A stretch of 64,000 nt of DNA from a virus: positions 115,755-179,754 of IMG/VR virus record IMGVR_UViG_3300027759_000002. One strand, given 5' to 3'. Under the pieces are notes generated by a model. The model had not been told where the DNA came from and made no database searches. It saw only the letters and a program-made list of their open reading frames with translations. A program made the position numbers and the translations under genes. Of the stretch, positions 2,554-54,325 are shown piece after piece. The number at the start of each line of letters is the position of its first letter. The stretch's first letter is position 1.

Positions 2554-2628
2554 GGGCTGATAGCTTAATGGTAAAGCAGTGAACTCATAATTCATTGAGT
2601 CTAGGTTCAATTCCTAGTCAGCCCACCA
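2554..2628 (+). tRNA. tRNA-CAT (Met elongator, or Ile if modified)
   Basis: Cloverleaf with acceptor GGGCTGA/TCAGCCC, CAT anticodon at 2586-2588, T loop TTCAATT and encoded CCA. It is fully paired at 1-72, so not an initiator. Begins directly after the preceding stop codon. Confidence 0.93.
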
Positions 2629-2641
2629 ATTTTAAAAAAAT

Positions 2642-3157: not shown

Positions 3158-3158
3158 T

Positions 3159-3196
3159 TCTCCTAAATAACTTGGGGTAATTGTGCCCTTAGGAGA
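3159..3196 (+). promoter_or_regulatory. SD-sequestering hairpin with embedded late promoter
   Basis: TCTCCTAA (3159-3166) pairs perfectly with TTAGGAGA (3189-3196), which contains the SD of the gene starting at 3202; GGG/CCC can extend the stem inside. The 5' arm overlaps CTAAATA (3163-3169), a late-promoter-like motif. A late transcript starting near 3175 would lack the 5' arm and expose the SD, the arrangement known for T4 genes e and soc. Confidence 0.65.
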
Positions 3197-3201
3197 CCAG
3201 G

Positions 3202-3708: not shown

Positions 3709-3711
3709 AAT

Positions 3712-4245
3712 ATGTCACATCCAACTCAACAAGAGTTTGTAAAAAAGTTATCATCGGATTTTCCACAAAACTTCAATAACATAAAGATGTTGGAAGTTGG
3801 TAGTTTAAATATCAACGGTACCATGAAGATACATTTTAATGAATGTGAGTATGTTGGTGTTGACGTTGATGCAGGAAAAGATGTTGACTTGGTTTGTGAA
3901 GGCCAGCTTGTCGACCATGCAGATGGCACATACGACACCACAGGTTCTTGTAATTGTTTCGAACACAATCCACATTGGATAGAAACATTTCAAAACATGT
4001 ATCGTATGACCAAAAAAGATGGATTAGTTTTTATCGTAGTACCAACAACAGGTTATCCTGAACATGGTACATCTAATAAAGCACCAAATGATAGTCCTTT
4101 AACCATTGCAAAAGGTTGGGAATATTACAGTAATCTTACAGAAGAAGATTTTTGTAAAAACTTTGATATGGATAGTATGTTTCATACTTACAAGTTTGAA
4201 ACAAATAATACTCCCGAATTATTTTTTTACGGATTTAAAAAATAA
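3712..4245 (+). CDS. Class I SAM-dependent methyltransferase-like protein
   Basis: Protein of 177 aa. Motif I reads MLEVGSLNINGT (residues 26-37), followed by a YVGVDVDAG strand with the acidic residue that binds SAM ribose, and a later DGLVFIVVPTTGY strand. This fits the Methyltransf_11 fold. The substrate is unknown; a small molecule or surface sugar is as likely as DNA because no NPPY-type catalytic motif is visible. It starts 3 bases after the SprT-like stop, so the two are co-transcribed. Confidence 0.7.
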   Translation: MSHPTQQEFVKKLSSDFPQNFNNIKMLEVGSLNINGTMKIHFNECEYVGVDVDAGKDVDLVCEGQLVDHADGTYDTTGSCNCFEHNPHWIETFQNMYRMTKKDGLVFIVVPTTGYPEHGTSNKAPNDSPLTIAKGWEYYSNLTEEDFCKNFDMDSMFHTYKFETNNTPELFFYGFKK

Positions 4246-4258
4246 TTTTAAAAACCGC

Positions 4259-4287
4259 TTGCCAAGACATAAAAGTTCCTATATAAT
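4259..4287 (+). promoter_or_regulatory. Sigma70 promoter (TTGCCA-17-TATAAT)
   Basis: TTGCCA 4259-4264, 17 bp, TATAAT 4282-4287. The predicted TSS coincides with ATG 4294, implying a leaderless message. Confidence 0.8.
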
Positions 4288-4293
4288 AACACT

Positions 4294-4404
4294 ATGAAAA
4301 ATTTTAAACATAAACCCTTTACGTTACAGTCCGAGTATCGCACAATTAATTGTGGTGATAGCTCATGGGCGCCGACTGGGTTTTGTGTAAAGAGAGAGAA
4401 CTAA
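4294..4404 (+). CDS. Hypothetical small protein, 36 aa
   Basis: Reads MKNFKHKPFTLQSEYRTI then NCGDSSWAPTGFCVKREN. It is flanked by its own promoter and terminator, with the ATG at the predicted transcription start. Two cysteines and a W-A-P-T-G-F-C stretch are the only features. The tight promoter-ORF-terminator packing argues it is expressed, but the region could also be a short non-coding RNA. Confidence 0.5.
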   Translation: MKNFKHKPFTLQSEYRTINCGDSSWAPTGFCVKREN

Positions 4405-4437
4405 TACATAAGTTCTAAAAAAGACTTCAAACACAAG

Positions 4438-4467
4438 ACCCTAGACCTAAAAAATCTAGGGTTTTTT
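4438..4467 (+). terminator. Rho-independent terminator
   Basis: ACCCTAGA (4438-4445) pairs with TCTAGGGT (4455-4462), followed by TTTTTT. Ends the 4294 unit just before the tRNA promoter. Confidence 0.9.
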
Positions 4468-4471
4468 GTTT

Positions 4472-4546
4472 GTTGTTTCAATACAACACAGTGGTTGCCA
4501 GGTCATCGAATCTGGTATACAATACACACTGTTCTTTAAAAATTTG
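4472..4546 (+). promoter_or_regulatory. tRNA operon 1 control region: palindrome, promoter, boxA leader
   Basis: A 16-bp near-palindrome GTTGTT-TCAA-TACAAC (4472-4487) precedes TTGCCA (4495-4500), 17 bp, TACAAT (4518-4523). The leader carries GTTCTTTAAAAATTTG (4531-4546), which resembles the boxA of proteobacterial rRNA operons. The same three-part module recurs before tRNA-Glu. Confidence 0.75.
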
Positions 4547-4557
4547 TCGTAGTTTAT

Positions 4558-4631
4558 TGGGGTATAGCATAGTGGTAGTGCTGCGGACTTTGAATCCGTA
4601 GGTCCTTGTTCGATTCAAGGTACCCCAGCCA
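4558..4631 (+). tRNA. tRNA-Gln(TTG)
   Basis: Acceptor TGGGGTA/TACCCCA, anticodon loop CTTTGAA, T loop TTCGATT, encoded CCA. First tRNA after the boxA leader. Confidence 0.95.
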
Positions 4632-4703
4632 TATAAAAACACATTAGAGATAAGCAGGAACTGGTTCGAAACGGGTCGCCTCGTTTAGTGTGTTTCTATA
4701 TGG
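4629..4703 (+). repeat. Hairpin-bounded spacer between tRNA-Gln and tRNA-Ser
   Basis: Arms 4629-4643 and 4689-4703 pair over 15 bp with one A-C mismatch. The left arm includes the CCA of tRNA-Gln and the right arm the first GG of tRNA-Ser. The same stem, with the same mismatch, recurs between tRNA-Lys and tRNA-Tyr although the inner 45 nt differ. Confidence 0.8.
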
Positions 4704-4793
4704 AAGATGATGCAGCGGGGTTGGTCCTGCGACTGGCCTTGAAAACCAGGTTCTCAGAAATGGGATGGGGTTCGACTCCTCCGTCTTCCGCCA
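4702..4793 (+). tRNA. tRNA-Ser(TGA)
   Basis: Class II tRNA with a long variable arm; anticodon loop CTTGAAA; acceptor GGAAGAT/GTCTTCC with one G-U pair; encoded CCA. Confidence 0.93.
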
Positions 4794-4798
4794 AACAT

Positions 4799-4886
4799 AG
4801 AAGGTTGCCCGAGCGGTTAAGGGAGCAGTTTGCTAAACTGTCGTTGCGAAAGCGGCGCATCGGTTCGAATCCGATACCTTCTGCCA
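4799..4886 (+). tRNA. tRNA-Ser(GCT)
   Basis: Acceptor AGAAGGT/ACCTTCT, anticodon loop TTGCTAA, class II variable arm, T loop TTCGAAT, encoded CCA. Confidence 0.94.
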
Positions 4887-4892
4887 AAACAT

Positions 4893-4968
4893 GTAGGTGT
4901 GACCCGAAAGGCTAGGGAGCAGATTGCAAATCTGTTACATGCAGGTTCGATTCCTGTCACCTACTCCA
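4893..4968 (+). tRNA. tRNA-Cys(GCA)
   Basis: Acceptor GTAGGTG/CACCTAC, anticodon loop TTGCAAA, T loop TTCGATT, encoded CCA. Confidence 0.94.
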
Positions 4969-4973
4969 AACAT

Positions 4974-5070
4974 GTTGTAGGAATACAACAGTCTGGTTGA
5001 CAATGATTCATGGTTGTGTTATACTTCATCTATGAATTGAGAAATCAATCAAACGTTCTTTAAAAATTTG
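4974..5070 (+). promoter_or_regulatory. tRNA operon 2 control region: palindrome, promoter, boxA leader
   Basis: Perfect palindrome GTTGTA-GGAA-TACAAC (4974-4989), then TTGACA (4997-5002), 17 bp, TATACT (5020-5025), then the boxA-like GTTCTTTAAAAATTTG (5055-5070), identical to that before tRNA-Gln. Confidence 0.8.
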
Positions 5071-5081
5071 TTGTAGTTAAT

Positions 5082-5156
5082 GCTCCGTTCGTCTATCGGT
5101 TAGGACGCTGCCCTTTCAAGGCGGAAAGACCAGTTCGATTCTGGTACGGAGTACCA
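5082..5156 (+). tRNA. tRNA-Glu(TTC)
   Basis: Acceptor GCTCCGT/ACGGAGT (first pair G-U), anticodon loop CTTTCAA, T loop TTCGATT, encoded CCA. Confidence 0.93.
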
Positions 5157-5278
5157 TTTGTTTTGCTGACGTAAGCGCTTGAGTAAACGTCAACTCTAAC
5201 TAACTATGTGTATAAACGGTAATGCTGCAGCTAAATCCGTTGAGCATAGCAAATAGTGCGTCAGCAAAACAAATGGTA
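5152..5278 (+). repeat. 20-bp perfect inverted repeat enclosing an 87-nt spacer
   Basis: TACCATTTGTTTTGCTGACG (5152-5171) is exactly complementary to 5259-5278. The left arm contains the CCA of tRNA-Glu. The inner 87 nt can fold further (AACGG with CCGTT, ATGCT with AGCAT). It contains no reading frame and sits between tRNA-Glu and tRNA-Lys. Confidence 0.85.
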
Positions 5279-5283
5279 GTTAT

Positions 5284-5358
5284 GGGGGTATAACTTAACG
5301 GCTAAAGTAGTAGGCTTTTAACCTATTAATCAGAGTTCGATTCTCTGTACCCCTACCA
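5284..5358 (+). tRNA. tRNA-Lys(TTT)
   Basis: Acceptor GGGGGTA/TACCCCT (first pair G-U), anticodon loop CTTTTAA, T loop TTCGATT, encoded CCA. Confidence 0.93.
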
Positions 5359-5429
5359 TATAAAAACACACTTCCGACAGCAGGCGGAACTCAGGATAAG
5401 TCCATTCGGGTGAGTGTGTTTCTATATGG
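5356..5429 (+). repeat. Hairpin-bounded spacer between tRNA-Lys and tRNA-Tyr
   Basis: Arms 5356-5371 and 5414-5429 pair over 16 bp with one A-C mismatch. They are the same arm sequences as at 4629-4703, again joining the CCA of one tRNA to the GG of the next. Inner sequence differs apart from short shared words (GATAAG, TTCG, GGGT). Confidence 0.8.
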
Positions 5430-5520
5430 AGGCATTGTAGATATGGCGTGTTCTGCAGCGGACTGTAAATCCGTTCCCCCGTGGTAAACAATGTTGGTTC
5501 GACTCCAACTGCCTCCACCA
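5428..5520 (+). tRNA. tRNA-Tyr(GTA)
   Basis: Class II tRNA with long variable arm; acceptor GGAGGCA/TGCCTCC; anticodon loop CTGTAAA; encoded CCA. Confidence 0.92.
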
Positions 5521-5712
5521 AATCCCGTTACTACTTCCGTTAAAGTAGCGTTTGATTAGCGATAGAGATCCGGTGGCAGAAAACCGTTAGCGAGAGAAAT
5601 CTCAGGCTCTGATAGGCAGTTCCCTCTGCACACAGACATTAGAATAAAAGGGATGGACAGAGTAACTTCTCAATTAAGGGCTTGTGTGGAAACAAGTAGC
5701 TTATCCTAATTT
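5521..5712 (+). other. Structured non-coding spacer between tRNA-Tyr and tRNA-Asp
   Basis: 190 nt without a convincing reading frame. Visible helices: CTACTT/AAGTAG near 5532-5549, GAGAT/ATCTC around an internal CGGT/ACCG hairpin, CTTGT/ACAAG near 5690, and AATTA/TAATT outside it. TCCCT-CTCTG versus AGGGA-CAGAG could form a pseudoknot or alternative fold. The ends CCAAAT/ATTTGG again pair the CCA of one tRNA with the start of the next. Confidence 0.5.
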
Positions 5713-5787
5713 GGTCTTAAAGTGTTCATGGACGCACATCAGCCTGTCACGCTGAAAGAAGGGGATCGTTACCCCTTAAGACCGCCA
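5713..5787 (+). tRNA. tRNA-Asp(GTC)
   Basis: Acceptor GGTCTTA/TAAGACC, anticodon loop CTGTCAC, encoded CCA. The T arm (GGGGATCGTTACCCC) is atypical but paired. Confidence 0.88.
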
Positions 5788-5812
5788 AATAATTGTTGTG
5801 AAGGAAAAGAAA

Positions 5813-6169
5813 ATGAATATAAACGATATGGTTGGAAAAGTATTCACATCGGTAACACAAGATGGTTATGAGATGGTATTTGCGAATGAAACTGAAAAAT
5901 TCAGATTCTTCCATTATCAAGATTGTTGCGAAACAGTTTACATTGAAAGCATTGTAGGTGAGTTATCGGATTTAGAAGGCGAAACACTTTTGATTGCTGA
6001 AGAAGTATCAGGTGAAATACCAGAACCTAAAGAAGATGAATACATTGAATCTCGCTCATGGACATTTTACAAATTTGCTACACGCAAAGGTTATGTTGAT
6101 GTTCGTTGGTTGGGAGAATCAAACGGTTACTATTCCGAATCAGTAGATTTAGAATACGAGTTAGTATAA
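5813..6169 (+). CDS. DUF7448-like conserved phage protein
   Basis: 118-residue acidic protein. ATG 5813 is chosen over GTG 5798 because an AAGGA SD sits about 8 bases upstream. The pattern FRFFHYQDCCETVYIESIVG, then LIAEEVSG, then WTFYKFATRKGYVDVRW with GESNGYYSESVD, matches a small uncharacterised family common in phages and some bacteria. No enzymatic motif is evident. It is embedded in the tRNA array and likely co-transcribed with it. Confidence 0.7.
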   Translation: MNINDMVGKVFTSVTQDGYEMVFANETEKFRFFHYQDCCETVYIESIVGELSDLEGETLLIAEEVSGEIPEPKEDEYIESRSWTFYKFATRKGYVDVRWLGESNGYYSESVDLEYELV

Positions 6170-6176
6170 AGAATAT

Positions 6177-6251
6177 TCCAGAGTAGCACAGCGGTAGTGC
6201 AGTTGACTGTTAATCAATTGGTCGTAGGTTCGATCCCTGCCTCTGGAGCCA
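6177..6251 (+). tRNA. tRNA-Asn(GTT)
   Basis: Acceptor TCCAGAG/CTCTGGA, anticodon loop CTGTTAA, T loop TTCGATC, encoded CCA. Begins 7 bases after the preceding stop. Confidence 0.93.
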
Positions 6252-6465
6252 ATACGTTCCGCTTGGTTAGCGGATACTGTGACCCGCAGGATAAGAAGTG
6301 AGGTGACTCTCAAGGGTGGTAGTCTTTTTACCGAAAGGCCGCTGGCAATGCGTTAACGATCCTGGTCGGGAAGCGGGTGGAGGTTATGGGTGTATTCCCC
6401 TTGAAAAAGGACATGTTTACAACTATGATATAATTACCGCCGCAGGATGCAGAGCACTTAATTTC
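6252..6465 (+). other. Structured gene-free spacer inside the tRNA array
   Basis: 214 nt with no credible ORF and higher GC than its surroundings. A CCGCT/AGCGG hairpin lies at 6259-6273, and further G/C-rich segments follow. Its last part holds an extended -10 promoter. No match to tmRNA or RNase P RNA signatures was found by eye. Confidence 0.4.
6426..6434 (+). promoter_or_regulatory. Extended -10 promoter before the tRNA-Thr block
   Basis: TGA-TATAAT (TATAAT 6429-6434) is an extended -10 element; no good -35 at 17 bp. It would start transcription about 25 nt before tRNA-Thr. Confidence 0.45.
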
Positions 6466-6539
6466 GCCCTATTAGTATAATGGCATTACACCTGTTTTGT
6501 AATCAGGTTACGGCAGTTCGATTCTGTCATGGGGCACCA
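6466..6539 (+). tRNA. tRNA-Thr(TGT)
   Basis: Acceptor GCCCTAT/ATGGGGC, anticodon loop TTTGTAA with a T-T mismatch at the bottom stem pair, T loop TTCGATT, encoded CCA. Confidence 0.88.
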
Positions 6540-6545
6540 GTTTTT

Positions 6546-6621
6546 CTCTCTGAAGCGTTATCAGGTTGCGTACACGGTTTGGGGCCGTGTGGTCAAGGTT
6601 CGAATCCTTGCAGGGAGACCA
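6546..6621 (+). tRNA. tRNA-Pro(TGG)
   Basis: Acceptor CTCTCTG/CAGGGAG, anticodon stem CACGG/CCGTG with loop TTTGGGG, T loop TTCGAAT, encoded CCA. Confidence 0.93.
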
Positions 6622-6629
6622 GTTTTTTT

Positions 6630-6704
6630 GGGGGCAGCAGTGGGCTGCGGCGTTCCCTTGCAAGGATCGTGACTAGAAGGATTCGATTTCCTCGGCCTCC
6701 ACCA
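6630..6704 (+). tRNA. tRNA-Ala(TGC), degenerate arms
   Basis: Anticodon loop CTTGCAA, encoded CCA, and acceptor GGGGGCA/GGCCTCC carrying a G3-U70 pair, the alanine identity element. The D loop is only 4 nt (GCAG-TGGG-CTGC), and the acceptor, anticodon and T stems each have a mismatch. It may function poorly or be decaying. Confidence 0.72.
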
Positions 6705-6708
6705 ATTA

Positions 6709-6783
6709 GGTTCAGTAGCATAGTGGCAGTGCAGCATCTTCATACGGTGCGTTGTGTGAGTTCGATTCTCACCTGAACCACCA
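6709..6783 (+). tRNA. tRNA-CAT (Met or lysidine-type Ile)
   Basis: Acceptor GGTTCAG/CTGAACC, anticodon stem GCATC/GGTGC with loop TTCATAC, encoded CCA. One of three CAT tRNAs in the window; one is probably Ile2. Confidence 0.9.
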
Positions 6784-6789
6784 AATTAT

Positions 6790-6864
6790 GGGCGATTAGT
6801 AAAATGAATATTACACAAGGCTACGAACCTTGAAGTGGGAGTTTGATTCTCTCATCGCCCTCCA
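6790..6864 (+). tRNA. tRNA-Arg(ACG)
   Basis: Acceptor GGGCGAT/ATCGCCC, anticodon stem AAGG/CCTT with loop CTACGAA, T loop TTTGATT, encoded CCA. Confidence 0.92.
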
Positions 6865-6868
6865 AAAT

Positions 6869-6943
6869 GCCGAGGTAGCTCAGTGGTAGAGCAGCGTCTT
6901 GATAAGGCGTTGGCCAAGAGTTCAATTCTCTTTCTCGGTACCA
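6869..6943 (+). tRNA. tRNA-Ile(GAT)
   Basis: Acceptor GCCGAGG/TCTCGGT, D arm GCTC/GAGC, anticodon loop TTGATAA, T loop TTCAATT, encoded CCA. Confidence 0.92.
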
Positions 6944-6946
6944 AAT

Positions 6947-7020
6947 TTCTCGCTGGTGTAATGGCAGCATAGCGGTCTCCAAAACCGTTGGTTGGGGTTC
7001 GAGTCCCTAGCGGGATGCCA
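6947..7020 (+). tRNA. tRNA-Trp(CCA)
   Basis: Anticodon loop CTCCAAA, acceptor TTCTCGC/GCGGGAT with a mismatch at the terminal pair, T loop TTCGAGT, encoded CCA. Confidence 0.88.
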
Positions 7021-7041
7021 ATTTTAAAAAAGGTGATTAAT

Positions 7042-7527
7042 ATGAAAAATTTCAATATAGAAGAAGTCAGACAATACCTTGCAAATCAAGGTCCTGATAC
7101 CAAGGTTTATCTTGGTGCCGACTCTGAAAGAATCAGGGTAAATGGTGTTTGGTATGCTGACTATGCTCTAGCAGTTGTAGTTCATATTGATGGCCGACAT
7201 GGTTGTAAGATTTTCGGATATGTTCACCGTGAATTGGATTACGACCATAAGAAAAGTAAACCTGCTATGAGGTTGATGACTGAAGTTTATAAAGTTTCAG
7301 AATTGTTCCAATCATTAGCAGAAGTGTTGGAAGATTATCATGTTGAAGTTCATCTTGATTTAAATAAAGATGATATTCATGGTAGTTCATGTGTTGTTCA
7401 GCAAGCGATTGGTTATATCAAAGGTACATGTAATATGACACCAATGGTTAAACCAGATGCACCTGCTGCAAGTTTTTGTGCTGATAGATTGAAAAGAATC
7501 TTGGCAGACCAAGAAGCACTTCAATAA
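7042..7527 (+). CDS. YkuK-like (DUF458) RNase H-fold protein
   Basis: 161-residue protein. ATG 7042 is chosen because an AGGTG SD lies about 8 bases upstream and earlier in-frame starts lie inside tRNA-Trp. Family signs are YLGADSE near residue 22 (first acidic site), an alternating strand ALAVVVHIDGRHG, then VHLDLNKDD and the C-terminal KPDAPAASFCADR. B. subtilis YkuK and relatives are predicted RNase H-like nucleases of unknown role. Lying between tRNA genes, a role in RNA processing is conceivable but is only inference. Confidence 0.7.
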   Translation: MKNFNIEEVRQYLANQGPDTKVYLGADSERIRVNGVWYADYALAVVVHIDGRHGCKIFGYVHRELDYDHKKSKPAMRLMTEVYKVSELFQSLAEVLEDYHVEVHLDLNKDDIHGSSCVVQQAIGYIKGTCNMTPMVKPDAPAASFCADRLKRILADQEALQ

Positions 7528-7530
7528 TAT

Positions 7531-7605
7531 GGAGAAATTAGTTTAGTGGTAAAACCACGGGTTGTGATTCCGTTATCACCAGTTCGATCCTGGTATTTCT
7601 CCCCA
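7531..7605 (+). tRNA. tRNA-His(GTG) with encoded G-1
   Basis: GAGAAAT/ATTTCTC acceptor, extra 5' G (7531) facing C73, anticodon loop TTGTGAT, encoded CCA. The encoded G-1 is the histidine identity element. Confidence 0.92.
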
Positions 7606-7610
7606 AATAT

Positions 7611-7685
7611 GCCCCGTTAGCTCAGTGGTAGAGCAGTGCTTTTACACGGCGAAGGTCGGCAGTTCGAAACTGTCACGGGGTACCA
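7611..7685 (+). tRNA. tRNA-Val(TAC)
   Basis: Acceptor GCCCCGT/ACGGGGT, loop TTTACAC, T loop TTCGAAA, encoded CCA. The anticodon stem has a G-A mismatch at its top. Confidence 0.88.
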
Positions 7686-7689
7686 ACAT

Positions 7690-7765
7690 GCTGCTTTAGC
7701 TGATGTGGTCATAGCGGTGGTCTGAAGAACCATTGAAAGAGGTTCGATTCCTCTAGGCAGCACCA
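7690..7765 (+). tRNA. tRNA-Phe(GAA)
   Basis: Acceptor GCTGCTT/AGGCAGC, anticodon loop CTGAAGA, T loop TTCGATT, encoded CCA. Confidence 0.93.
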
Positions 7766-7770
7766 AATAT

Positions 7771-7847
7771 GCCCAAGTGACGGAATAGGTATACGTACTT
7801 GATTCAAAATCAAGGTTATGTGGGCTCGAATCCCACCTTGGGTACCA
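7771..7847 (+). tRNA. tRNA-Leu(CAA) with short variable loop
   Basis: Acceptor GCCCAAG/CTTGGGT, anticodon stem CTTGA/TCAAG with loop TTCAAAA, T loop CTCGAAT, encoded CCA. The variable region is only about 5 nt, whereas bacterial leucine tRNAs are class II. Confidence 0.85.
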
Positions 7848-7848
7848 T

Positions 7849-7922
7849 GCTCTTATAGGTAAATGGCATACCACATCCATGGTAAGGATGTATCCTAAGT
7901 TCGATTCTTAGTAGGAGCACCA
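7849..7922 (+). tRNA. tRNA-Thr(GGT)
   Basis: Acceptor GCTCTTA/TAGGAGC, anticodon stem CATCC/GGATG with loop ATGGTAA, T loop TTCGATT, encoded CCA. Overlapped antisense by the end of the gene at 7895-8119. Confidence 0.92.
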
Positions 7923-8119
7923 ACTTGTTTTAATGTTGTTAAGATAAATTCTTTTTCTTGTGTGATATATAATTCATCATCTTCAAAAGTTTTTATCTTA
8001 GTATCATATGATGGAACAAATTCAGAATCAACACAGTAGTAACCATTAGGTTCATATGTTTGTTGTGCATACAATCCGTAAAACATTTCTACTGTAGGTC
8101 TTTTTGAAGTTGGTATCAT
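7895..8119 (-). CDS. Hypothetical protein, 74 aa, antisense within tRNA array
   Basis: Reads MIPTSKRPTVEMFYGLYA..., with phage-like composition, and fills the only gap between two tRNAs. Its last residues read antisense into the T arm of tRNA-Thr. Just upstream on the minus strand is AATAAATA (8132-8125), a late-promoter-like motif whose expected start coincides with the ATG, so it may be leaderless and late. Function unknown. Confidence 0.5.
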   Translation of the reverse strand: MIPTSKRPTVEMFYGLYAQQTYEPNGYYCVDSEFVPSYDTKIKTFEDDELYITQEKEFILTTLKQVGAPTKNRT

Positions 8120-8132
8120 ATGAGTATTTATT

Positions 8133-8209
8133 GCCCCGGTGACGGAATTGGTATACGTGTTGGTCTTAGAAGCCAAATTTTGAGAGTTCGAGTCTCTCCT
8201 GGGGCACCA
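8133..8209 (+). tRNA. tRNA-Leu(TAG) with short variable loop
   Basis: Acceptor GCCCCGG/CTGGGGC, anticodon stem TTGGT/GCCAA with loop CTTAGAA, T loop TTCGAGT, encoded CCA. Variable loop about 6 nt; shares its D-arm sequence with the Leu(CAA) tRNA. Confidence 0.87.
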
Positions 8210-8214
8210 AATTT

Positions 8215-8289
8215 CTGGCGTTAGTATAATGGATAATACAGTAGGCTTCTACCCTTCTAATGGGAGTTCGATTCTCTCACGCCGGACCA
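8215..8289 (+). tRNA. tRNA-Arg(TCT)
   Basis: Acceptor CTGGCGT/ACGCCGG, anticodon loop CTTCTAC, T loop TTCGATT, encoded CCA. Confidence 0.9.
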
Positions 8290-8306
8290 TTTTTTAGGAG
8301 TTTATT

Positions 8307-8885
8307 ATGCCAGCAGTATTTTTAGTAAGTGACACACACTTTGGTCACGCTGGTGTGTGTAGATTTCTTCGTGATGACGGAACAAAACTTCGGCCATGGG
8401 ATAATCCCGATGAAATGGATGAAGAAATGATTAAGCGTTGGAACGAAACAGTCAGACCAAACGATAAAGTTTACCATCTTGGTGATGTTGTTATTAATCG
8501 TAAAGCAATGAATACTCTATATAGACTTAACGGTGATAAGGTTCTTATTCGTGGTAACCATGATATCTTCCGTGATGAGGAATACAGACAACACTTTCGT
8601 GAACTACGTGCTTATCATGTAATGAATGGAATGATCCTGTCACATATTCCAATTCATACGGAAAGTCTTGGTCGTTTCGGTGTAAACATCCATGGCCATT
8701 TACATTCCAATCGTGTTCAGATTCGTGGGTTCAATGGTAAACCAATGGGTATTGATAACAGATACCATTGTGTTTGTGTTGAACAAACAGATTTTAGACC
8801 GATTCTTTTTGAAGATGTTATCAAACGAATTAAAGAAGAAGGTGGTGAGGTCGGTTTCAAAAGTGGAAACGACCGTGCTATGTGA
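8307..8885 (+). CDS. Calcineurin-like metallophosphoesterase
   Basis: 192-residue enzyme with the full metal-binding set in order: SDTHFGH (residues 8-14), GDVV (about 59), RGNHD (about 79), a lone SH (about 112) and GHLHS (about 130). The SD AGGAG lies 9 bases before ATG. Such phage enzymes are usually phosphodiesterases of unknown substrate, possibly nucleotides or tRNA-related. The stop is one base before tRNA-Leu, so it is part of the tRNA transcript. Confidence 0.85.
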   Translation: MPAVFLVSDTHFGHAGVCRFLRDDGTKLRPWDNPDEMDEEMIKRWNETVRPNDKVYHLGDVVINRKAMNTLYRLNGDKVLIRGNHDIFRDEEYRQHFRELRAYHVMNGMILSHIPIHTESLGRFGVNIHGHLHSNRVQIRGFNGKPMGIDNRYHCVCVEQTDFRPILFEDVIKRIKEEGGEVGFKSGNDRAM

Positions 8886-8886
8886 T

Positions 8887-8969
8887 GCGAGTATGGGGGA
8901 ATTGGTAGACCCATCAGACTTAAAATCTGCCGCCTCGGCGTACCGGTTCGACTCCGGTTACTCGTACCA
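8887..8969 (+). tRNA. tRNA-Leu(TAA)
   Basis: Normal class II leucine tRNA: acceptor GCGAGTA/TACTCGT, anticodon loop CTTAAAA, long variable arm, T loop TTCGACT, encoded CCA. Confidence 0.95.
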
Positions 8970-8979
8970 AAAATAATGC

Positions 8980-9008
8980 TTGACTTCTTAATAAGAAGCC
9001 TATATAAT
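8980..9008 (+). promoter_or_regulatory. Sigma70 promoter for the tRNA-Gly block
   Basis: TTGACT (8980-8985), 17 bp, TATAAT (9003-9008). The spacer itself contains a small inverted repeat (CTTCTTA/TAAGAAG). TSS about 5 nt before tRNA-Gly. Confidence 0.85.
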
Positions 9009-9019
9009 ACACACATGAT

Positions 9020-9094
9020 GCGGGTATGGTGCTAGTGGTAACACAAGACCTTGCCAAGGTTTAGTTGTGAGTTCGATTCTCACTACCCGCTCCA
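9020..9094 (+). tRNA. tRNA-Gly(GCC)
   Basis: Acceptor GCGGGTA/TACCCGC, anticodon loop TTGCCAA, T loop TTCGATT, encoded CCA. Confidence 0.94.
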
Positions 9095-9116
9095 AGTTAA
9101 CTACAACAGATTTTAT

Positions 9117-9190
9117 GCGGGATTAGTTTAGTGGTAAAACAGTAGATTTCCAATCTCCGGTTGAGAGTTCGATTCTCTCATCCCGCTCCA
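9117..9190 (+). tRNA. tRNA-Gly(TCC)
   Basis: Acceptor GCGGGAT/ATCCCGC, anticodon loop TTTCCAA, T loop TTCGATT, encoded CCA. Confidence 0.93.
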
Positions 9191-9196
9191 TTTAAT

Positions 9197-9263
9197 GCGG
9201 TTTGTAATAGTACGATACAAGGTACCCCCTTGTGTTAACTGAGCAAAGCAGTAGACCGCTCCA
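9197..9263 (+). ncRNA. Degenerate tRNA-like element (anticodon-position ACC)
   Basis: 67 nt with acceptor GCGGTTT/AGACCGC, discriminator T and encoded CCA. Stem ACAAG/CTTGT closes a 7-nt loop GTACCCC. ACTG/CAGT stands in the T-arm place, but its loop (AGCAAAG) lacks the TTC-A signature, and the D arm is rudimentary. It may be a decayed tRNA-Gly or a tRNA mimic. It sits in the leader of the groES-like gene. Confidence 0.5.
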
Positions 9264-9276
9264 TTTTGAGGACACT

Positions 9277-9522
9277 ATGAATATTAAACCCTTGCATGAT
9301 AAAGTATTGATTGAACGTATTGAGAATGTCAAAGAGACCGCTTCAGGCATCATCCTAAAACATTCCGAAGATCCAGATAAAGCAAGAGTACTTGCAGTTG
9401 GTCCGGATGTTACAGAAGTCCAGGTCGGTGATGTGGTTCAACCAGACTGGGGTAAGGCCGCAGCAGTGCAAGATTATTTCGTGGTGAAGATTGAAGACAT
9501 AGCTTACATCTACGGAGAGTAA
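9277..9522 (+). CDS. GroES-like co-chaperonin (Cpn10 / gp31 counterpart)
   Basis: 81-residue Cpn10 domain. It starts MNIKPLHDKVLIERIE as in bacterial GroES, carries a mobile-loop region near residues 17-30 (KETASGIIL, family hydrophobic tripeptide IIL) and ends IEDIAYIYGE. T4 uses gp31 in place of GroES so that GroEL can fold the major capsid protein; this protein is closer to host GroES. ATG 9277 is chosen because GAGGA lies 7 bases upstream. It is in the same transcript as the glycine tRNAs. Confidence 0.9.
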   Translation: MNIKPLHDKVLIERIENVKETASGIILKHSEDPDKARVLAVGPDVTEVQVGDVVQPDWGKAAAVQDYFVVKIEDIAYIYGE

Positions 9523-9524
9523 AC

Positions 9525-9752
9525 ATGTCTGATGGTGGTAAAGGTTCTAGTCCAAGGCCGTTTAGTGTTTCACAGAAAACATTTGGTAATAACTACGACA
9601 ATATTTTTAGAAAAAAATCACCAAAAGAAATACAAGAAGACAAATACGAACAAGAAGAATTTGATAGAATTTTAGAAGAAAATCGTATGCGCCAAAAGGC
9701 TTTAGATGCCATGGTGGCAGAAAATCAAAGATTAGGTTTATACGACAACTAA
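9525..9752 (+). CDS. Conserved small phage protein (GGKGSSPRPF type)
   Basis: 75-residue charged protein beginning MSDGGKGSSPRPFSVSQ and continuing FGNNYDNIFRKK. This N-terminal motif recurs in small hypothetical proteins of many phages. The second half is predicted coiled coil. It follows groES by 2 bases, so it is in the same operon. Function unknown. Confidence 0.65.
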   Translation: MSDGGKGSSPRPFSVSQKTFGNNYDNIFRKKSPKEIQEDKYEQEEFDRILEENRMRQKALDAMVAENQRLGLYDN

Positions 9753-9755
9753 TAT

Positions 9756-9828
9756 AGCGGGTTGGTGAAATGGTATCACAGTGGGCTCATAATCCTCAGT
9801 TCCGGTTCGACTCCGTGACCCGCAACCA
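9756..9828 (+). tRNA. tRNA-Met(CAT), initiator-like
   Basis: Aligning from the T loop (TTCGACT) puts A1 opposite A72, an unpaired end as in bacterial initiator tRNAs (normally C1-A72). The anticodon stem has GGG at 29-31 opposite TCC, near the initiator GGG/CCC signature. Loop CTCATAA; encoded CCA. Probably a phage tRNA-fMet. Confidence 0.75.
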
Positions 9829-13885: not shown

Positions 13886-15060
13886 TATTTTTAACGTTAC
13901 TTACAGCACTAGGTTTATCTGGTGTTTCTGCCTACTATTCAGTTATTGGTTTAGCACAAATTTTTCCTGGTTCATTTTGGCCAATTATTTTTATGGGTTC
14001 GGTTCTTGAAGCTTCGAAACTAGTAACAGTATCGTGGTTGTATAATAATTGGAAACAATGTCCTTTTCTTATTAAATCATATTTGTCGATAGCAGTTATC
14101 ATTTTAATGTTGATTACTTCAATGGGTATATTTGGTTTCTTATCAAAGGCACACTTAGAACATTCAGCAGATAGTGGTCCGTATGTTGATAAGATTTCTA
14201 TCATTGACGAAAAAATCAGAACATCAAAAGAAAATATTGATGCGAACCGGAAGGCGCTTAGACAAATGGATGAGGCTGTGGACCAAGTTATGGGCCGCAG
14301 TACTGATGAAAAAGGTGCGGATAAAGCTGTTGCAGTCCGAAAAACACAGCAGAAAGAACGCATCCGCCTTCAATCTGAGATTTCGACCGAACAGAAAACT
14401 ATTGCAACCCTCAATGAAGAAAGAGCACCGATATCAACGGAACTCCGTAAGGTTGAAGCGGATGTAGGACCAATCAAATACATTGCTGCACTGGCATATG
14501 GTGAAGCAACAACTGACATTATGGACAAAGCAGTACGCCTTGTTATTCTATTGATTATTGTTGTATTTGATCCATTAGCAATTCTATTGTTAATCGCATA
14601 TAACATGTCAATCAAACAAAAAGAAGATGTTGAAGACTTCTTCGAACGAGTTAAAGTAAATGCAAGAAAATTGGATGAAGATGCCAAGCATGCTGAGCAA
14701 GAGGTTGTTAATGTAGTACCTGAAACTGTACATGTTGAAGAACCAGTTGATCCTTATGCATACCTGAAACAGCCATTCAAACACTTTGAGAATTTGAAAC
14801 CAATGGTTGCACCAAAAGAAGATACTTTGCAAATTAAAAAAGATAATATGATTGTGATTGATGATATAACTGGTGAAACCATACCGCCAATCACACATGA
14901 AAAGGTAACAATTGAAACCCACAATGCACGAAATTCTGTTATGTATGAAGAACATCATGTACCAATAGAAGAACCTGTGAAAAAATTGGAACCTAAGTAT
15001 GATTATGATGAACCGTATTCTTTTAAAGAGAAAGAAATTCGTGATGCTGGTAAATTTTAA
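13882..15060 (+). CDS. Polytopic membrane protein with coiled coil, 392 aa
   Basis: Begins with hydrophobic segments at about residues 1-23, 33-55 and 66-90, then a long charged coiled coil (about 100-205), a further membrane span (about 218-245) and a Pro/Glu-rich hydrophilic tail. It overlaps the polymerase stop by 4 bases and is followed by uvsX, a placement typical of related marine phages. Function unknown; membrane anchoring of replication is possible but unproven. Confidence 0.8.
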   Translation: MIFLTLLTALGLSGVSAYYSVIGLAQIFPGSFWPIIFMGSVLEASKLVTVSWLYNNWKQCPFLIKSYLSIAVIILMLITSMGIFGFLSKAHLEHSADSGPYVDKISIIDEKIRTSKENIDANRKALRQMDEAVDQVMGRSTDEKGADKAVAVRKTQQKERIRLQSEISTEQKTIATLNEERAPISTELRKVEADVGPIKYIAALAYGEATTDIMDKAVRLVILLIIVVFDPLAILLLIAYNMSIKQKEDVEDFFERVKVNARKLDEDAKHAEQEVVNVVPETVHVEEPVDPYAYLKQPFKHFENLKPMVAPKEDTLQIKKDNMIVIDDITGETIPPITHEKVTIETHNARNSVMYEEHHVPIEEPVKKLEPKYDYDEPYSFKEKEIRDAGKF

Positions 15061-15071
15061 AGGATGAAACA

Positions 15072-16139
15072 ATGAGTATATTAGACAAAATTAAAAAAAA
15101 TAGTAGTATTAAAGATTCTGCTATCTTAGCTAAATCAAAATTCTTCAATGCGAAGGATATGATTCCAACAGCGGTGCCAATTATTAACGTGGCACTTTCT
15201 GGTAAGTTAGATGGTGGTCTGACACCAGGTCTTACAATGTGGGCAGGTCCGTCCAAACACTTTAAGACTGCATTTAGTTTGTTGATGGCCAAATCTTACT
15301 TGGACAAATATCCCGATGCAGCACTACTATTCTATGATTCAGAGTTTGGTACTCCGCAGTCTTATTTTGACAGCTTTGGTATTGACACAGAGCGGGTGCT
15401 CCATACTCCTCTTACAGATATTGAACAACTCAAATTCGACATAATGGCACAGTTGACACAATTGGAACGTGGTGATAAGTTGATTATTGTCATTGATTCA
15501 ATTGGTAACTTAGCATCTAAGAAAGAGGTTGAAGATGCCTTAGCGGAGAAATCAGTTGCTGATATGTCCCGAGCCAAACAAGTTAAGAGTTTGTTCCGTA
15601 TGGTGACACCTCACTTATCATTGAAAGACATTCCAATGGTTGTTGTAAATCACACATACATGGAAATTGGTATGTTCCCTAAAGCTATTGTCGGTGGTGG
15701 TACAGGTTCATATTATTCAGCTGACAATATTTTTATTATCGGCCGTCAACAAGAAAAAGATGGTACAGAAGTTACCGGTTACAATTTTATTATTAACGTG
15801 GAAAAATCTAGATATGTCAAAGAAAAATCTAAAATACCTGTCAGTGTATCTTTTGATGGTGGTATTAGCACTTGGTCTGGTTTACTTGACCTTGCTATTG
15901 AGTCCAAACATGTGGTTAAACCAAAGAATGGTTGGTATCAACGTGTTGACACAGATGGTGTGATTGAAGAAAAGAATTACCGTGAGAAGGACACCGACAC
16001 CAAAGACTTTTGGATGCCTATTCTGAAACAGAAATCTTTCCGTGATTTCATTGAGAACAAATACCGTGTGGCATCCGGAGAAATTATGACAAGCAATATT
16101 GATGAAACATTTGATGTTGCAACCATGAATGGTGTATAA
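15072..16139 (+). CDS. uvsX: UvsX, RecA-like recombinase
   Basis: Strand-exchange protein for recombination-dependent replication and repair. Walker A GPSKHFKT at about residues 58-65 lacks the usual second glycine, as in T4 UvsX. A following FYDSEFG (about 87) and Walker B LIIVIDSIG (about 138) complete the ATPase site. At 355 aa it is close to T4 UvsX (391). ATG has a weak AGGA SD. Confidence 0.95.
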   Translation: MSILDKIKKNSSIKDSAILAKSKFFNAKDMIPTAVPIINVALSGKLDGGLTPGLTMWAGPSKHFKTAFSLLMAKSYLDKYPDAALLFYDSEFGTPQSYFDSFGIDTERVLHTPLTDIEQLKFDIMAQLTQLERGDKLIIVIDSIGNLASKKEVEDALAEKSVADMSRAKQVKSLFRMVTPHLSLKDIPMVVVNHTYMEIGMFPKAIVGGGTGSYYSADNIFIIGRQQEKDGTEVTGYNFIINVEKSRYVKEKSKIPVSVSFDGGISTWSGLLDLAIESKHVVKPKNGWYQRVDTDGVIEEKNYREKDTDTKDFWMPILKQKSFRDFIENKYRVASGEIMTSNIDETFDVATMNGV

Positions 16140-16459: not shown

Positions 16460-17810
16460 TGAAGAATATTTACGCAAGGTTTTACCATTTCTAAAATCAG
16501 AATATTTTACAGACAGAAGCGACAAAACATTATATGATGAGATTGCATCATTCACAGAAACTTACAATTCTACACCAACGGTTGAAGCACTTGTACTGGC
16601 CGTCAAAGAAAGGCGAAATCTCTCAGATGAGGAAGTGGAGAAGTGTGAATCTTATCTAAAAGAGATTGAGAAAACTAAAGGTGAAGAATCCAAGGTTCAA
16701 TGGCTTGTTGACAAGACCGAACAGTTTTGCCAAGAGAAGGCCATTTATAACGCTGTATTGGGGTCTATTTCAATCCTCGATGGCAAGGACAAAACCAATG
16801 ACAAAGGTTCGATTCCCAAAATACTATCAGATGCCTTAGCGATAAGTTTTGACAATTCTGTTGGCCACGATTATCTTGAAAACTCGGATGAACGATATGA
16901 TTTCTACCATCGTAAAGAAGAACGAATCCCTTTTGACTTAGAGTTCTTTAACAAAATCACAAAAGGTGGCTTGCCTAATAAGACGCTTAATATAGCTCTT
17001 GCCGGAACTGGTGTTGGAAAAAGTTTGTTCATGTGTCATGTGGCTGCAGGCTGTATGGTACAAGGCAAGAATGTTCTTTACATCACAATGGAAATGAGTG
17101 AAGAAAAGATTGCAGAACGTATTGATGCCAACTTATTGAATGTCACGATTGATGACCTTGTAAGTTTACCAAAAGATTTGTATGATAAAAAGATTAATAA
17201 ACTCCGTGAAAAGACTGTGGGTAAACTTATCATTAAAGAGTATCCAACAGCGTCTGCAAGCAGCATACATTTTCGTACCTTACTCAACGAGCTTAATCTT
17301 AAAAAGTCTTTTGTTCCTGATATTATTTTCATTGACTACCTCAATATTTGTTGTTCTTCTCGCATCAAAGCAGGAGCAAATGTCAACTCATATTCCTACG
17401 TTAAATCCATCGCCGAGGAGTTGCGAGGTCTTGCCGTTGAGTTCGGAGTACCTATTGTTTCTGCGACACAAACAACTAGAAGTGGATTTACTTCTTCCGA
17501 TCCCGGACTTGAGGACACAAGTGAGTCTTTTGGTTTGCCGGCAACCGCAGACTTGATGTTTGCATTGATTTCTTCCGAAGAACTAGAAGAAATGGGACAG
17601 ATTATGGTAAAACAATTGAAGAATCGTTATAATGATCCAACGCATTTCAAACGATTCACTCTAGGTATTGATAGGTCGAAAATGAGATTATATGATATTG
17701 AACAGTCTAGCCAAGATGGCATCACAGATTCTGGTCAAGATAAACCACTCAACACATTTGGTAACAGAGAGAAAACACAGAAGAAATCATTCGATGGATT
17801 TAAAGTATGA
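16419..17810 (+). CDS. 41: DnaB-type replicative helicase (gp41)
   Basis: Hexameric 5'-3' helicase of 463 aa that drives the fork and binds the primase. Walker A GTGVGKS at about residue 196, ITMEMSEEKIAERIDANLL after it, Walker B IIFIDYLNI, then SATQTTRSG near residue 350 (H4-like). ATG 16419 is used although TTG 16416 precedes it in frame. Most of its first 40 bases lie within the preceding gene. Confidence 0.96.
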   Translation: MKLEQTILKNLIYNEEYLRKVLPFLKSEYFTDRSDKTLYDEIASFTETYNSTPTVEALVLAVKERRNLSDEEVEKCESYLKEIEKTKGEESKVQWLVDKTEQFCQEKAIYNAVLGSISILDGKDKTNDKGSIPKILSDALAISFDNSVGHDYLENSDERYDFYHRKEERIPFDLEFFNKITKGGLPNKTLNIALAGTGVGKSLFMCHVAAGCMVQGKNVLYITMEMSEEKIAERIDANLLNVTIDDLVSLPKDLYDKKINKLREKTVGKLIIKEYPTASASSIHFRTLLNELNLKKSFVPDIIFIDYLNICCSSRIKAGANVNSYSYVKSIAEELRGLAVEFGVPIVSATQTTRSGFTSSDPGLEDTSESFGLPATADLMFALISSEELEEMGQIMVKQLKNRYNDPTHFKRFTLGIDRSKMRLYDIEQSSQDGITDSGQDKPLNTFGNREKTQKKSFDGFKV

Positions 17811-18913
17811 AATTAGAATTTAATGATGCAGTTCATTGCGCCAAAGTATTTGAAGATTACTTTGGTAGTTTTGACCGTATTGATGAGTATATGCGTGACC
17901 AAAAGTTGAATTCTTTGGCCGAATTGCCATCCAATCCTTTGTTTCCGATTGAAGATGAGTTGTTTCAAGACTTCACAATGAATCCAAAAAATATGAATTT
18001 TGAGGTTGTCGAGATTGATAATGAAACTTGGACCAATCTATTGAACATCACTTCATCTCATGTAAACATTCCGCCAGTTGGCCGCAATGTTAAACTGGCA
18101 GTGCGTGAAACCAATACAGGAAAGTACGTAGGATTCATCCGTCTTGGTTCACCTGTAATCAACTGTAAGCCACGTAATGATATGCTTGGTCAAGTGTTTA
18201 CACAAAAACCTGAGTGGGGTAAACGATTCAATAATTCTGCAATGATGGGTTTTGTTATTGTACCTGCACAACCATTTGGTTATAATTACCTTGGTGGTAA
18301 ACTGTTGGCTGCAATCTGCACTTCACATGAAGTACGTGAGATTGTAAATGTAAAGTATGGAATGAACCTGTGTCTCTTTGAAACAACTTCTTTGTATGGT
18401 AGTTCAAAGACTGTATCGCAATATGATGGTATGAAACCATATATCAGATATAAAGGCCTGACAGATTCTGATTTTCTTCCTATGATGCACGGCAAACCTT
18501 ATTCTGACCTACGTGATTTCGTACAAGATAAAGTCGGACCTTTGGTTGAAGATGTTGCTTCTAGTAAGAAACTGAAAATCTCTATGAAGATTATTTCCCT
18601 CACTAAAGCTGCACTTAAAGGTACACCTGAAGGGGATACATTCATAGCAACGATTGGGAAAGCAAAAGGGTTGACAGAGCAAAAAAGATATTACACCAGT
18701 GACTATGGCTTTAAAAACATGGTTGACTATGTAAACTGTAAGACGGACGTGCTTATTCCTGGTGAAAACTATGAAAAACACAATCTGGTAAACTTGATTG
18801 AATGGTGGCGAAATAAGGCTTGTAATCGGTATGAAACTCTGTACAATGAGAAACGGTTAAAAACCGAACTAGAAATTTGGACTTCTGGAAAGGAGATCCA
18901 AATTATAAGATAA
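17807..18913 (+). CDS. DUF4338/DruA-like protein
   Basis: 368 residues, overlapping the helicase stop by 4 bases. The core from about residue 105 reads GKYVGFIRLGSPVINCKPR, then FNNSAMMGFVIVPAQ, LGGKLLAA, a KYG and LFETTSLYGSSK. This follows the DUF4338 order (RPRDxxIGW, NNxRFLIxP, LASHLLG, YG, ETF), the fold of DruA from Druantia anti-phage systems. Function in phages is unknown. The match is by motif order, not alignment, so confidence is moderate. Confidence 0.55.
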   Translation: MKLEFNDAVHCAKVFEDYFGSFDRIDEYMRDQKLNSLAELPSNPLFPIEDELFQDFTMNPKNMNFEVVEIDNETWTNLLNITSSHVNIPPVGRNVKLAVRETNTGKYVGFIRLGSPVINCKPRNDMLGQVFTQKPEWGKRFNNSAMMGFVIVPAQPFGYNYLGGKLLAAICTSHEVREIVNVKYGMNLCLFETTSLYGSSKTVSQYDGMKPYIRYKGLTDSDFLPMMHGKPYSDLRDFVQDKVGPLVEDVASSKKLKISMKIISLTKAALKGTPEGDTFIATIGKAKGLTEQKRYYTSDYGFKNMVDYVNCKTDVLIPGENYEKHNLVNLIEWWRNKACNRYETLYNEKRLKTELEIWTSGKEIQIIR

Positions 18914-52423: not shown

Positions 52424-52753
52424 TTACGCAATTGCTTTGCGTGCCATGATGGCAGCAGCAATTGCATTGTCCTCAGCGCCGAAAACCACGCCTTTGCTTG
52501 GGCGCTTGTTGGCTTTTATTGCCTTAGCGCCTACAGCACCAACTTGCTTTGCAAGCAGTTTAGCAAGGCGTGCTTCTGCTTTCACAATAGCGATAGCACG
52601 CTTCTGCTCAGCATCGGCAATTTTAGAAGCATTAGCTGCTTCCTTTTCAGCCTTGACCTTGACGGCAAGAAAAGCAACCTCTGATTTGAAAAACTTCAAA
52701 GAAGCACGAGCAGAGGCCAATTCAGTGGCGAGGGGGGAGAGAGCTTTTGACAT
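52424..52753 (-). CDS. Ala/Lys-rich helical protein, 109 aa
   Basis: Starts at ATG 52753: MSKALSPLATELASARASLK, then long Ala/Lys/Glu helices (VKAEKEAANASKIADAEQKR) and KQVGAVGAKAIKANKRPSKG. Composition is reminiscent of histone H1-like or coiled-coil proteins, but no family is certain. Own promoter and SD (AAAGGA). Confidence 0.6.
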   Translation of the reverse strand: MSKALSPLATELASARASLKFFKSEVAFLAVKVKAEKEAANASKIADAEQKRAIAIVKAEARLAKLLAKQVGAVGAKAIKANKRPSKGVVFGAEDNAIAAAIMARKAIA

Positions 52754-52781
52754 TTTGTTTCCTTTTTGATTTGATGGATGA

Positions 52782-52820
52782 ATTATAACCGATTTTAGCC
52801 GTTTAGGCAACCTGAGTACT
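52782..52820 (-). promoter_or_regulatory. Minus-strand promoter with AGTACT element
   Basis: Minus strand: AGTACT (52820-52815), CAGG, TTGCCT (52810-52805), 17 bp, TATAAT (52787-52782). The upstream half lies inside the end of the next minus gene. Confidence 0.8.
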
Positions 52821-53045
52821 TTTTTCTTCAAGCATTTCACTCAAGATATATTTTGCAATATTCATGAGCTTGCGGGACTGGTCAAGCGCTTGAGCATGGT
52901 TAAAGGACTGGAGCTCTTGAGCGTCCGACAATATGCTCATGCACACCATTTCCAGACCAGAGAACCTGGCGGTGATGCTTTGCATATACTGCTCACGGAT
53001 ATCTGCTGTGGTCATACCGTAGCACTGCTTTTCGAATTCTGTCAT
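52803..53045 (-). CDS. Hypothetical protein, 80 aa
   Basis: ATG 53045: MTEFEKQCYGMTTADIREQY, then helical MVCMSILSDAQELQSFNHAQ and AKYILSEMLEE. The C-terminal codons overlap the promoter of the next minus gene. No family recognised. Confidence 0.6.
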   Translation of the reverse strand: MTEFEKQCYGMTTADIREQYMQSITARFSGLEMVCMSILSDAQELQSFNHAQALDQSRKLMNIAKYILSEMLEEKSTQVA

Positions 53046-53331: not shown

Positions 53332-53523
53332 ATGGGCAAAATGTCAGAAATTAGTATTCAATTACAAGAGTTGGAAGAAATGCTGTATACTTTTGGTTTA
53401 GGCCATGAAGAATTCATACAGGAATGTAAACTTTTGTGTGAGTTGGGGTTTGCTGATGAAGTAAATTGTATTATCCATGAGTTTGAAACAAAAGTATTCA
53501 ACGGCGACCTAGAGCGCTTCTGA
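53332..53523 (+). CDS. Hypothetical protein, 63 aa
   Basis: ATG 53332 follows CAGGAG at good spacing; an in-frame ATG at 53296 is inside the promoter. MGKMSEISIQLQELEEMLYT then EEFIQECKLLCELGFADEVN: helical and acidic. Function unknown. Confidence 0.6.
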   Translation: MGKMSEISIQLQELEEMLYTFGLGHEEFIQECKLLCELGFADEVNCIIHEFETKVFNGDLERF

Positions 53524-53917
53524 GAGTAACACTTTGGTTTGCGGTAGAAAAACCATTGTAATGCTTTGAGGTGCCATCGCAGGCACAGACTAAGACTTTC
53601 TTGTTACTTCATAATGCGAAATATGGTGCGCTGGTAACACTAAAGCACACAAAATTGCACTTTTTAACACTTTTGCAGTATATTATGCGGAACATGATAA
53701 CTTTCTCAGTACACCTGGATGCAGGTTACAACGGAAGTACTCATTAACTAGTCAGGTAAAGTTATCCACAGCATATCCACAGCATCTGCGACTTATACAC
53801 ATTTTATACACAGACTTATCCACAGCATATAATATGAATACTATAGTACTCCATGGCCATAATGTAAGACTTTTCTCTTATATTGCCATTTCATATAAAA
53901 CCTGTATAATGTAACAC
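53524..53917 (+). other. Gene-free region with DnaA-box cluster (candidate origin)
   Basis: No credible ORF in nearly 400 bases. Five same-strand DnaA-type boxes lie at 53762-53770 (TTATCCACA), 53773-53781 (ATATCCACA), 53793-53801 (TTATACACA), 53804-53812 (TTATACACA) and 53816-53824 (TTATCCACA). Four match the TTATNCACA consensus exactly. AT-rich stretches flank them, and AGTACT elements lie at 53736 and 53845. Proposed replication origin or DnaA-controlled site. Confidence 0.65.
53845..53910 (+). promoter_or_regulatory. AGTACT element and promoter of the 53918 gene
   Basis: AGTACT (53845-53850); TTGCCA (53883-53888), 16 bp, TATAAT (53905-53910). The predicted TSS (about 53917) touches the first in-frame ATG. 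Confidence 0.75.
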
Positions 53918-54325
53918 ATGACAACAAACAATGATGAAAGAACGAAAATGAGTACTTTTGATAACAATTTTGACTTGGGTATTTTTGCAGATACAATTTA
54001 CAATGCATCGGAAAGTATTATTGCTGAAACTGAAAATGTAGAAGAAGGTTTTACTGGTGATATGTTAGATGTAATACATTTTTCTGACATACGTGATTCT
54101 GCTGAGGAATTACAACTTTTGATTGAACGTTATGAGTCAATCGAAAGTATTAAGAACGAAAGTATTAATTTGTACCAGAATGTTAAGTATATCTTAGAAC
54201 ATTGTGAAAATGAAATCTTTAGTACTACTGACACAGAGATAATGAATTCTTTTGATAACATTAGAACTTATGTTGACGTTATACGTGATGCAGTTAATAC
54301 TTTAGTATCAGAGCAGTCGGCTTGA
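53918..54325 (+). CDS. Acidic hypothetical protein, 135 aa
   Basis: If translation begins at ATG 53918 the message is leaderless; ATG 53948 (MSTFDNNFDLGIF) gives a 125-aa product with a 30-nt leader and is an equal alternative. Acidic and helical (DSAEELQLLIERYESIESIK). No family recognised. Confidence 0.6.
   Translation: MTTNNDERTKMSTFDNNFDLGIFADTIYNASESIIAETENVEEGFTGDMLDVIHFSDIRDSAEELQLLIERYESIESIKNESINLYQNVKYILEHCENEIFSTTDTEIMNSFDNIRTYVDVIRDAVNTLVSEQSA

Follow-up and report, generated by a model that had tools for sequence, protein, structure and literature searches.

Introduction

Replication that does without the host initiator is exemplified in textbooks by the T4-like phages. DnaA boxes are familiar elements of phage and plasmid origins, and bacterial oriC, like DnaA-assisted plasmid and P1-type origins, carries tandem DnaA boxes with helical spacing beside AT-rich DNA. 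In T4, the origins oriE, oriF and oriG lie at junctions of divergent transcription, and oriE is characterized by direct repeats, dependence on an early promoter and little effect of a gene 59 mutation (PMC3016281). In phage lambda, two DnaA-box-like sites near pO are footprinted by DnaA, which also stimulates the transcriptional activation of ori-lambda (PMC3985674).

The T5 injection stop signal is marked by repeats, palindromes and DnaA boxes (PMC13250531). In E. coli, much of the capacity for DnaA titration resides in the loci datA, DARS1 and DARS2 (PMC12371093), and a review describes DnaA as a transcription factor in bacteria (PMC8203912). For T4-like phages, a search of the open-access literature, which excludes most subscription papers, gave no account of DnaA-box arrays.

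Results

The window considered here is a stretch of 64,000 nucleotides, the final 64 kb of an IMG/VR record whose two ends share 127 identical bases, and the genome is therefore circular in the assembly (179.8 kb). It carries the T4-type core genes for the polymerase (phrog_262), UvsX, a gp41-type helicase, a gp61-type primase, rIIA/rIIB and gp59, together with further T4-type genes for SSB, an SbcC/D-like gp46/47 nuclease, terminase, portal and major head protein. The designation as a T4-like phage, made in an earlier sequence-only reading, is thus correct at the level of the T4 superfamily but does not extend to T4 itself, as the polymerase is nearest to those of cyanophage-type T4-like phages (ca 50% identity to the closest cultured ones). 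BLASTN gave no homologue of the array locus among cultured phages, and a scan of bacterial genomes for the host returned two distant matches only. Elsewhere in the window, 26 tRNA genes lie on a single strand at 2554-9828, and phrog_19197, a family of unassigned function, has two matching proteins (window 17807-18913 and L219:10738-12003), of which one is encoded next to the gp41-type helicase.

Direct reading of the sequence gives five DnaA boxes, all on the + strand, at 53762-53824, that is, within 63 bp. The start-to-start spacings are 11, 20, 11 and 12, and four of the five boxes are exact TTATNCACA sites, the remaining one having a single mismatch. This agrees with the sequence-only reading in every respect except the limits: it had placed the array at 53736-53850, of which the part outside 53762-53824 is flanking sequence. 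Box 1 (53762-53770) is an exact TTATCCACA, replaced by TTGTCCACA in L012 and unchanged in the other close relatives that were aligned, while box 2 (53773-53781), ATATCCACA, is the one with the mismatch and is an exact box, TTATACACA, in L012. Box 3 (53793-53801) is an exact TTATACACA and reads TTATGCACA in L009-L013, differing only at the free N position. The exact box 4 (53804-53812), also TTATACACA, is TTATCCACA in L012 and L172 and TTATGCACA in L225, and the exact box 5 (53816-53824), TTATCCACA, is the same in all close relatives aligned.

The whole 179,754-bp genome holds 14 exact TTATNCACA sites, four of which are inside the array. Clusters were scored by counting 2 for an exact site and 1 for a one-mismatch site on the same strand within 72 bp. 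The top score genome-wide is 9, compared to at most 4 in 200 dinucleotide-preserving shuffles of the whole genome; the several TTWTNCACA matches are thus more crowded than expected by chance.

The array lies in a gene-free stretch of 394 bp (53524-53917), which by a simple ORF rule applied window-wide is the largest outside the tRNA region, as had been claimed. The claimed strand switch is present as well, with minus-strand genes on the left, encoding a GP88-family protein (PF17338; 51419-52063) and proteins of 110 aa (52424-52756) and 79 aa (52803-53042), and a plus-strand operon on the right. Immediately upstream of the array is a plus-strand gene for a 63-aa protein without family match (53332-53523). 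The downstream plus-strand gene (135 aa, 53918-54325), for which an ATG near 53950 may be the true start, has other genes in its place in some relatives. Many related IMG/VR contigs end at 49-53.3 kb of the window, often within the leftward GP88-family gene, which suggests a strain-variable or repeat-rich segment. These ends bunch only loosely upstream of the array and share no base, and there is therefore no physical terminus there.

A sigma70-type promoter of the early type (53883-53910, + strand, TTGCCA-16-TATAAT) is located 59 bp past the array. Strict matches of this TTGCCA/TATAAT type number 14 genome-wide, and boxes are found only at this one. An AGTACT palindrome (53845-53850) precedes its −35 hexamer by 38 bp and is also found at box-less promoters of the same region. 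Between 52.1 and 58.7 kb of the window there is a family of such early-type promoters (TTGCCA, ca 16-17 bp, TATAAT; for example at 53154, 53276, 53883, 54874, 56474 and 58676), in which AGTACT stands 38 and/or 17-18 bp ahead of the −35 hexamer, with about two helical turns between the two positions. The palindrome is concentrated in this region (16 of 48 sites are within 165-176 kb of the record) and looks like a binding site for some regulator.

Within 53500-54000, the 50-bp duplex with the lowest nearest-neighbour stability is 53801-53850, at the 98th percentile genome-wide. It overlaps the end of the array, adjoins the promoter and is a possible unwinding segment, although a weak candidate because its sequence is poorly conserved in detail, 12 bp of it being missing from L010 and L011. 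There is no clear DnaA-trio series after the boxes.

We now consider the conservation of the array in uncultured relatives. The contigs L009-L013 were found via the downstream protein and constitute an unbiased set; the unbiased test is limited to them because the box pattern itself had served to find L225. Two contigs also found by this pattern (L223 and L227) were set aside, the match apparently being inside a coding gene. The array is present at the same place in all of L009-L013, with one helical turn of extra DNA between boxes 2 and 3 in L009 (11 bp) and in L012 (10 bp). In eight relatives, the changes compared to the window are 8/318 (2.5%) at the fixed box positions, 13/40 (32%) at the free N position, 29/225 (13%) in the spacers and 211/1194 in the flanks, which differ in 17-19% of comparisons. 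For L009-L013 only, the fixed positions (4/200) differ from the N position (8/25, Fisher p 3e-6) and from the flanks (84/743, p 8e-6), and more weakly from the spacers (p 0.08). Since the compared sequences share ancestry, these p values are only a guide; two of the most divergent pairs, each considered singly, still give p values of 4e-4 (L012) and 1e-4 (L172) for fixed positions versus flanks. Across the relatives, the fixed positions are constrained and N is free, a substitution pattern that demonstrates selection on DnaA-box identity. Genuine DnaA boxes under selection, located at a strand switch in a T4-superfamily phage, are well supported, and to this extent the earlier interpretation is upheld.

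In more distant relatives (L150, L162, L172, L220, L226, L228 and L230), two to five same-strand boxes with changed spacing are found at the place of the array, and the contigs G001 (176,024 bp) and G002 (176,978 bp) have one such cluster apiece, with the orientation retained. The array end is 42-62 bp from the TTGCCA −35 hexamer in 13 of 14 loci. A divergent-transcription junction is seen at the array in G000 and G002, and G001 also has leftward genes. The gene behind the promoter varies among the relatives, so that the module is not tied to a single gene. Nine other contigs carry the upstream 63-aa gene. In eight of them boxes follow at a distance of 160-320 bp downstream; L284, the exception, has no box there but retains a related promoter and a related downstream gene.

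A BLAST search of cultured phages with the array as query pointed to T4-like vibriophages. In ValKK3 and XZ1 (Schizotequatrovirus), a single intergenic region holds eight same-strand boxes, and VS1, VS2, QD01 and nt-1 have diverged versions of this array, the number of boxes being 7-8 across ValKK3, XZ1, nt-1 and QD01. KVP40, V09 and phi-pp2 have no box at this place, and alignment of KVP40 and V09 reveals unrelated DNA of similar length in place of the array, with conserved flanks. Beside the ValKK3 array (L237, ca 3040-3100), a conserved inverted repeat, GGCATGGT...ACCATGCT, surrounds an AT-rich stretch, and it is retained in the box-less KVP40. No DnaA-box cluster was found in T4, four cyanophages and the pelagiphage HTVC008M. 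Arrays of at least four boxes are also present in other tailed-phage contigs, some of them adjoining terminase genes, and DnaA-box arrays occur near the ends of T5-like genomes. About seven same-strand boxes lie in an unannotated stretch beside the tail fibre gene of the Klebsiella phage VLCpiA2a (Autographiviridae; L242, record 14982-15141).

Discussion

The DnaA domains PF00308 and PF08299 were not found in G000, G001, G002 or ValKK3, by searches that were positive in most control genomes. With no match to either domain, a phage-encoded DnaA was rejected as the reader of the boxes, and host DnaA is therefore the likely one. The sites were kept while the surrounding DNA changed, so the phages probably borrow host DnaA here and the boxes probably serve it.

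The sequence-only reading had offered origin firing, titration of host DnaA and DnaA-controlled transcription. Sequence alone does not separate these, and the origin is favoured rather than demonstrated. Our main reading, to which we assign a probability of roughly 0.45, is that the array may be a host-DnaA module that assists the initiation of phage replication at the early-gene strand switch. Host DnaA-ATP would form a head-to-tail filament on the boxes, and this filament, aided by early transcription that starts at the promoter 42-62 bp away, would open the AT-rich segment adjoining box 5; alternatively, an R-loop on the early transcript would be stabilised. The phage replisome would then take over, with the gp59-type loader, gp41-type helicase, gp61-type primase and gp43-type polymerase, all of which are encoded. 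As one of several origins, the array would be auxiliary and, in some relatives, dispensable, which is our proposed reason why L284 lacks it and KVP40 has other DNA in its place.

In favour of an origin are a cluster far beyond chance and selection that can be resolved to single positions of the DnaA motif. To these are added the helical-phase insertions, the turnover with orientation kept, the independence of the module from any one gene, the divergent junction as at T4 oriE, oriF and oriG, the lack of a DnaA domain in the phage and the separate vibriophage arrays. It is from the sequence and its conserved boxes that we infer origin firing. Against it, DnaA is not obviously needed, as the phage has genes for a replisome and a helicase loader of its own; L284 and the KVP40-type phages are without the array; the AT-rich segment is poorly conserved in detail; and the constant promoter distance suits transcription control equally well. 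The GC-skew check proposed earlier went against the origin, with no switch at the array over the full genome in the raw skew and a fourfold-site skew of the same sign all round, although one-strand coding and multiple origins could mask a switch. The ValKK3 array (33 kb) is likewise not at a GC-skew extreme.

If the module acted on transcription instead, host DnaA bound upstream would activate or time the early promoter at 53883-53910 with replication uninvolved, and early gene expression would track the growth state of the host. Such control would account for the promoter distance in 13/14 loci and for boxes that point towards the promoter, and DnaA is known as a bacterial transcription factor (PMC8203912). 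Yet the gene behind the promoter varies, L284 has a promoter of the same kind and a related gene without boxes, only 1 of the 14 strict promoter matches has boxes, and in ValKK3 the adjacent annotated genes are on the strand opposite the boxes, so that this geometry is not common to both lineages. We consider transcription control rather doubtful. Also unlikely, and somewhat more so, is titration or inactivation, in which copies of the array would act as a datA-like decoy that soaks up host DnaA and blocks new rounds of host replication. One dense cluster of near-perfect boxes per genome, untied to one gene and with tolerated loss, would fit a decoy, and datA, DARS1 and DARS2 provide the precedent in E. 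coli (PMC12371093). However, some five sites per genome would suffice only after replication has yielded many copies, and a decoy needs neither strict orientation, helical phasing nor a fixed distance to a promoter.

The AT-rich character of the intergenic DNA here raises the question of chance or low-complexity sequence, or of sites for another protein that resemble DnaA boxes. This is very improbable in view of the shuffle control, the fixed positions that stay constant while N is free, and the recurrence of the motif in T4-like vibriophages, in an intergenic region unrelated to this one; for another binder, the variable spacing speaks against longer Rep-type iterons. Least credible of all is a DNA-entry stop or attachment signal of the kind proposed for the T5 injection stop signal. 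DnaA boxes are part of that signal (PMC13250531), and in the T5-like phage bombadil such boxes occur close to the left end, in an annotated-repeat region, but the 127-bp identical ends of the present genome are as for a circularly permuted one, with no fixed distance from an entering end, and the scattered contig ends of the relatives mark no terminus.

Were a conserved and swappable module for host DnaA established in two distinct T4-like lineages, of which one is cultured, these phages would be directly linked to the host cell-cycle initiator. Tentatively, and with less confidence than for the main reading, some T4-superfamily phages may carry a host-DnaA-dependent origin as an exchangeable cassette, with KVP40 having other sequence in the same place. 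If so, the choice of origin would evolve by module swapping, with phage replication tied to host DnaA. QD01, nt-1 or ValKK3 versus KVP40 are natural pairs with and without the array for studying its function, and the existence of cultured array-bearing phages allows a direct test. The array is relevant, too, to the question of what the T4 oriE repeats do.

Comparison with Known Systems

The vibriophage arrays share with the window array the T4-superfamily setting, tandem same-strand boxes with spacings mostly of 11-12 or 20-23 bp, a single cluster per genome and turnover at the N position. They differ in their genes, genomic place and geometry relative to the adjacent genes, and the two probably arose separately. 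Like the array, T4 oriE combines short direct repeats with an early promoter and a strand switch (PMC3016281), whereas its repeats, which lie within gene 5, are GTTGAAGGTAATG-like with a 24-bp period and do not represent DnaA boxes. An iteron origin of the oriE type was rejected, the T4 repeats being unrelated to the array and within gene 5.

Compared to oriC and the plasmid or P1-type origins, no Rep gene, clear unwinding element, DnaA-trio series or skew switch was found at the array. The T5 injection stop signal is likewise a DnaA-box cluster in a lytic phage, but it is near a fixed genome end, and its boxes are interrupted, with a second set of opposite orientation ca 2 kb away. An element of this type was discarded, since the contig is circular and no fixed terminus is seen. 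Like the array, datA and DARS are dense DnaA-box loci; they are marked by dependence on IHF and by the hydrolysis or reactivation of DnaA-ATP.

Lambda encodes an initiator, O, and has just two DnaA-box-like sites at pO, compared to five ordered boxes and no initiator found in the window phage. What its origin region (pR, pO) has in common with the array is host DnaA sites beside a promoter, with transcription aiding origin firing (PMC3985674). This precedent for host DnaA acting with transcription, together with the divergent junction, the early-type promoter and the weakly paired segment, leads us to favour a DnaA-assisted auxiliary origin over transcription control and titration.
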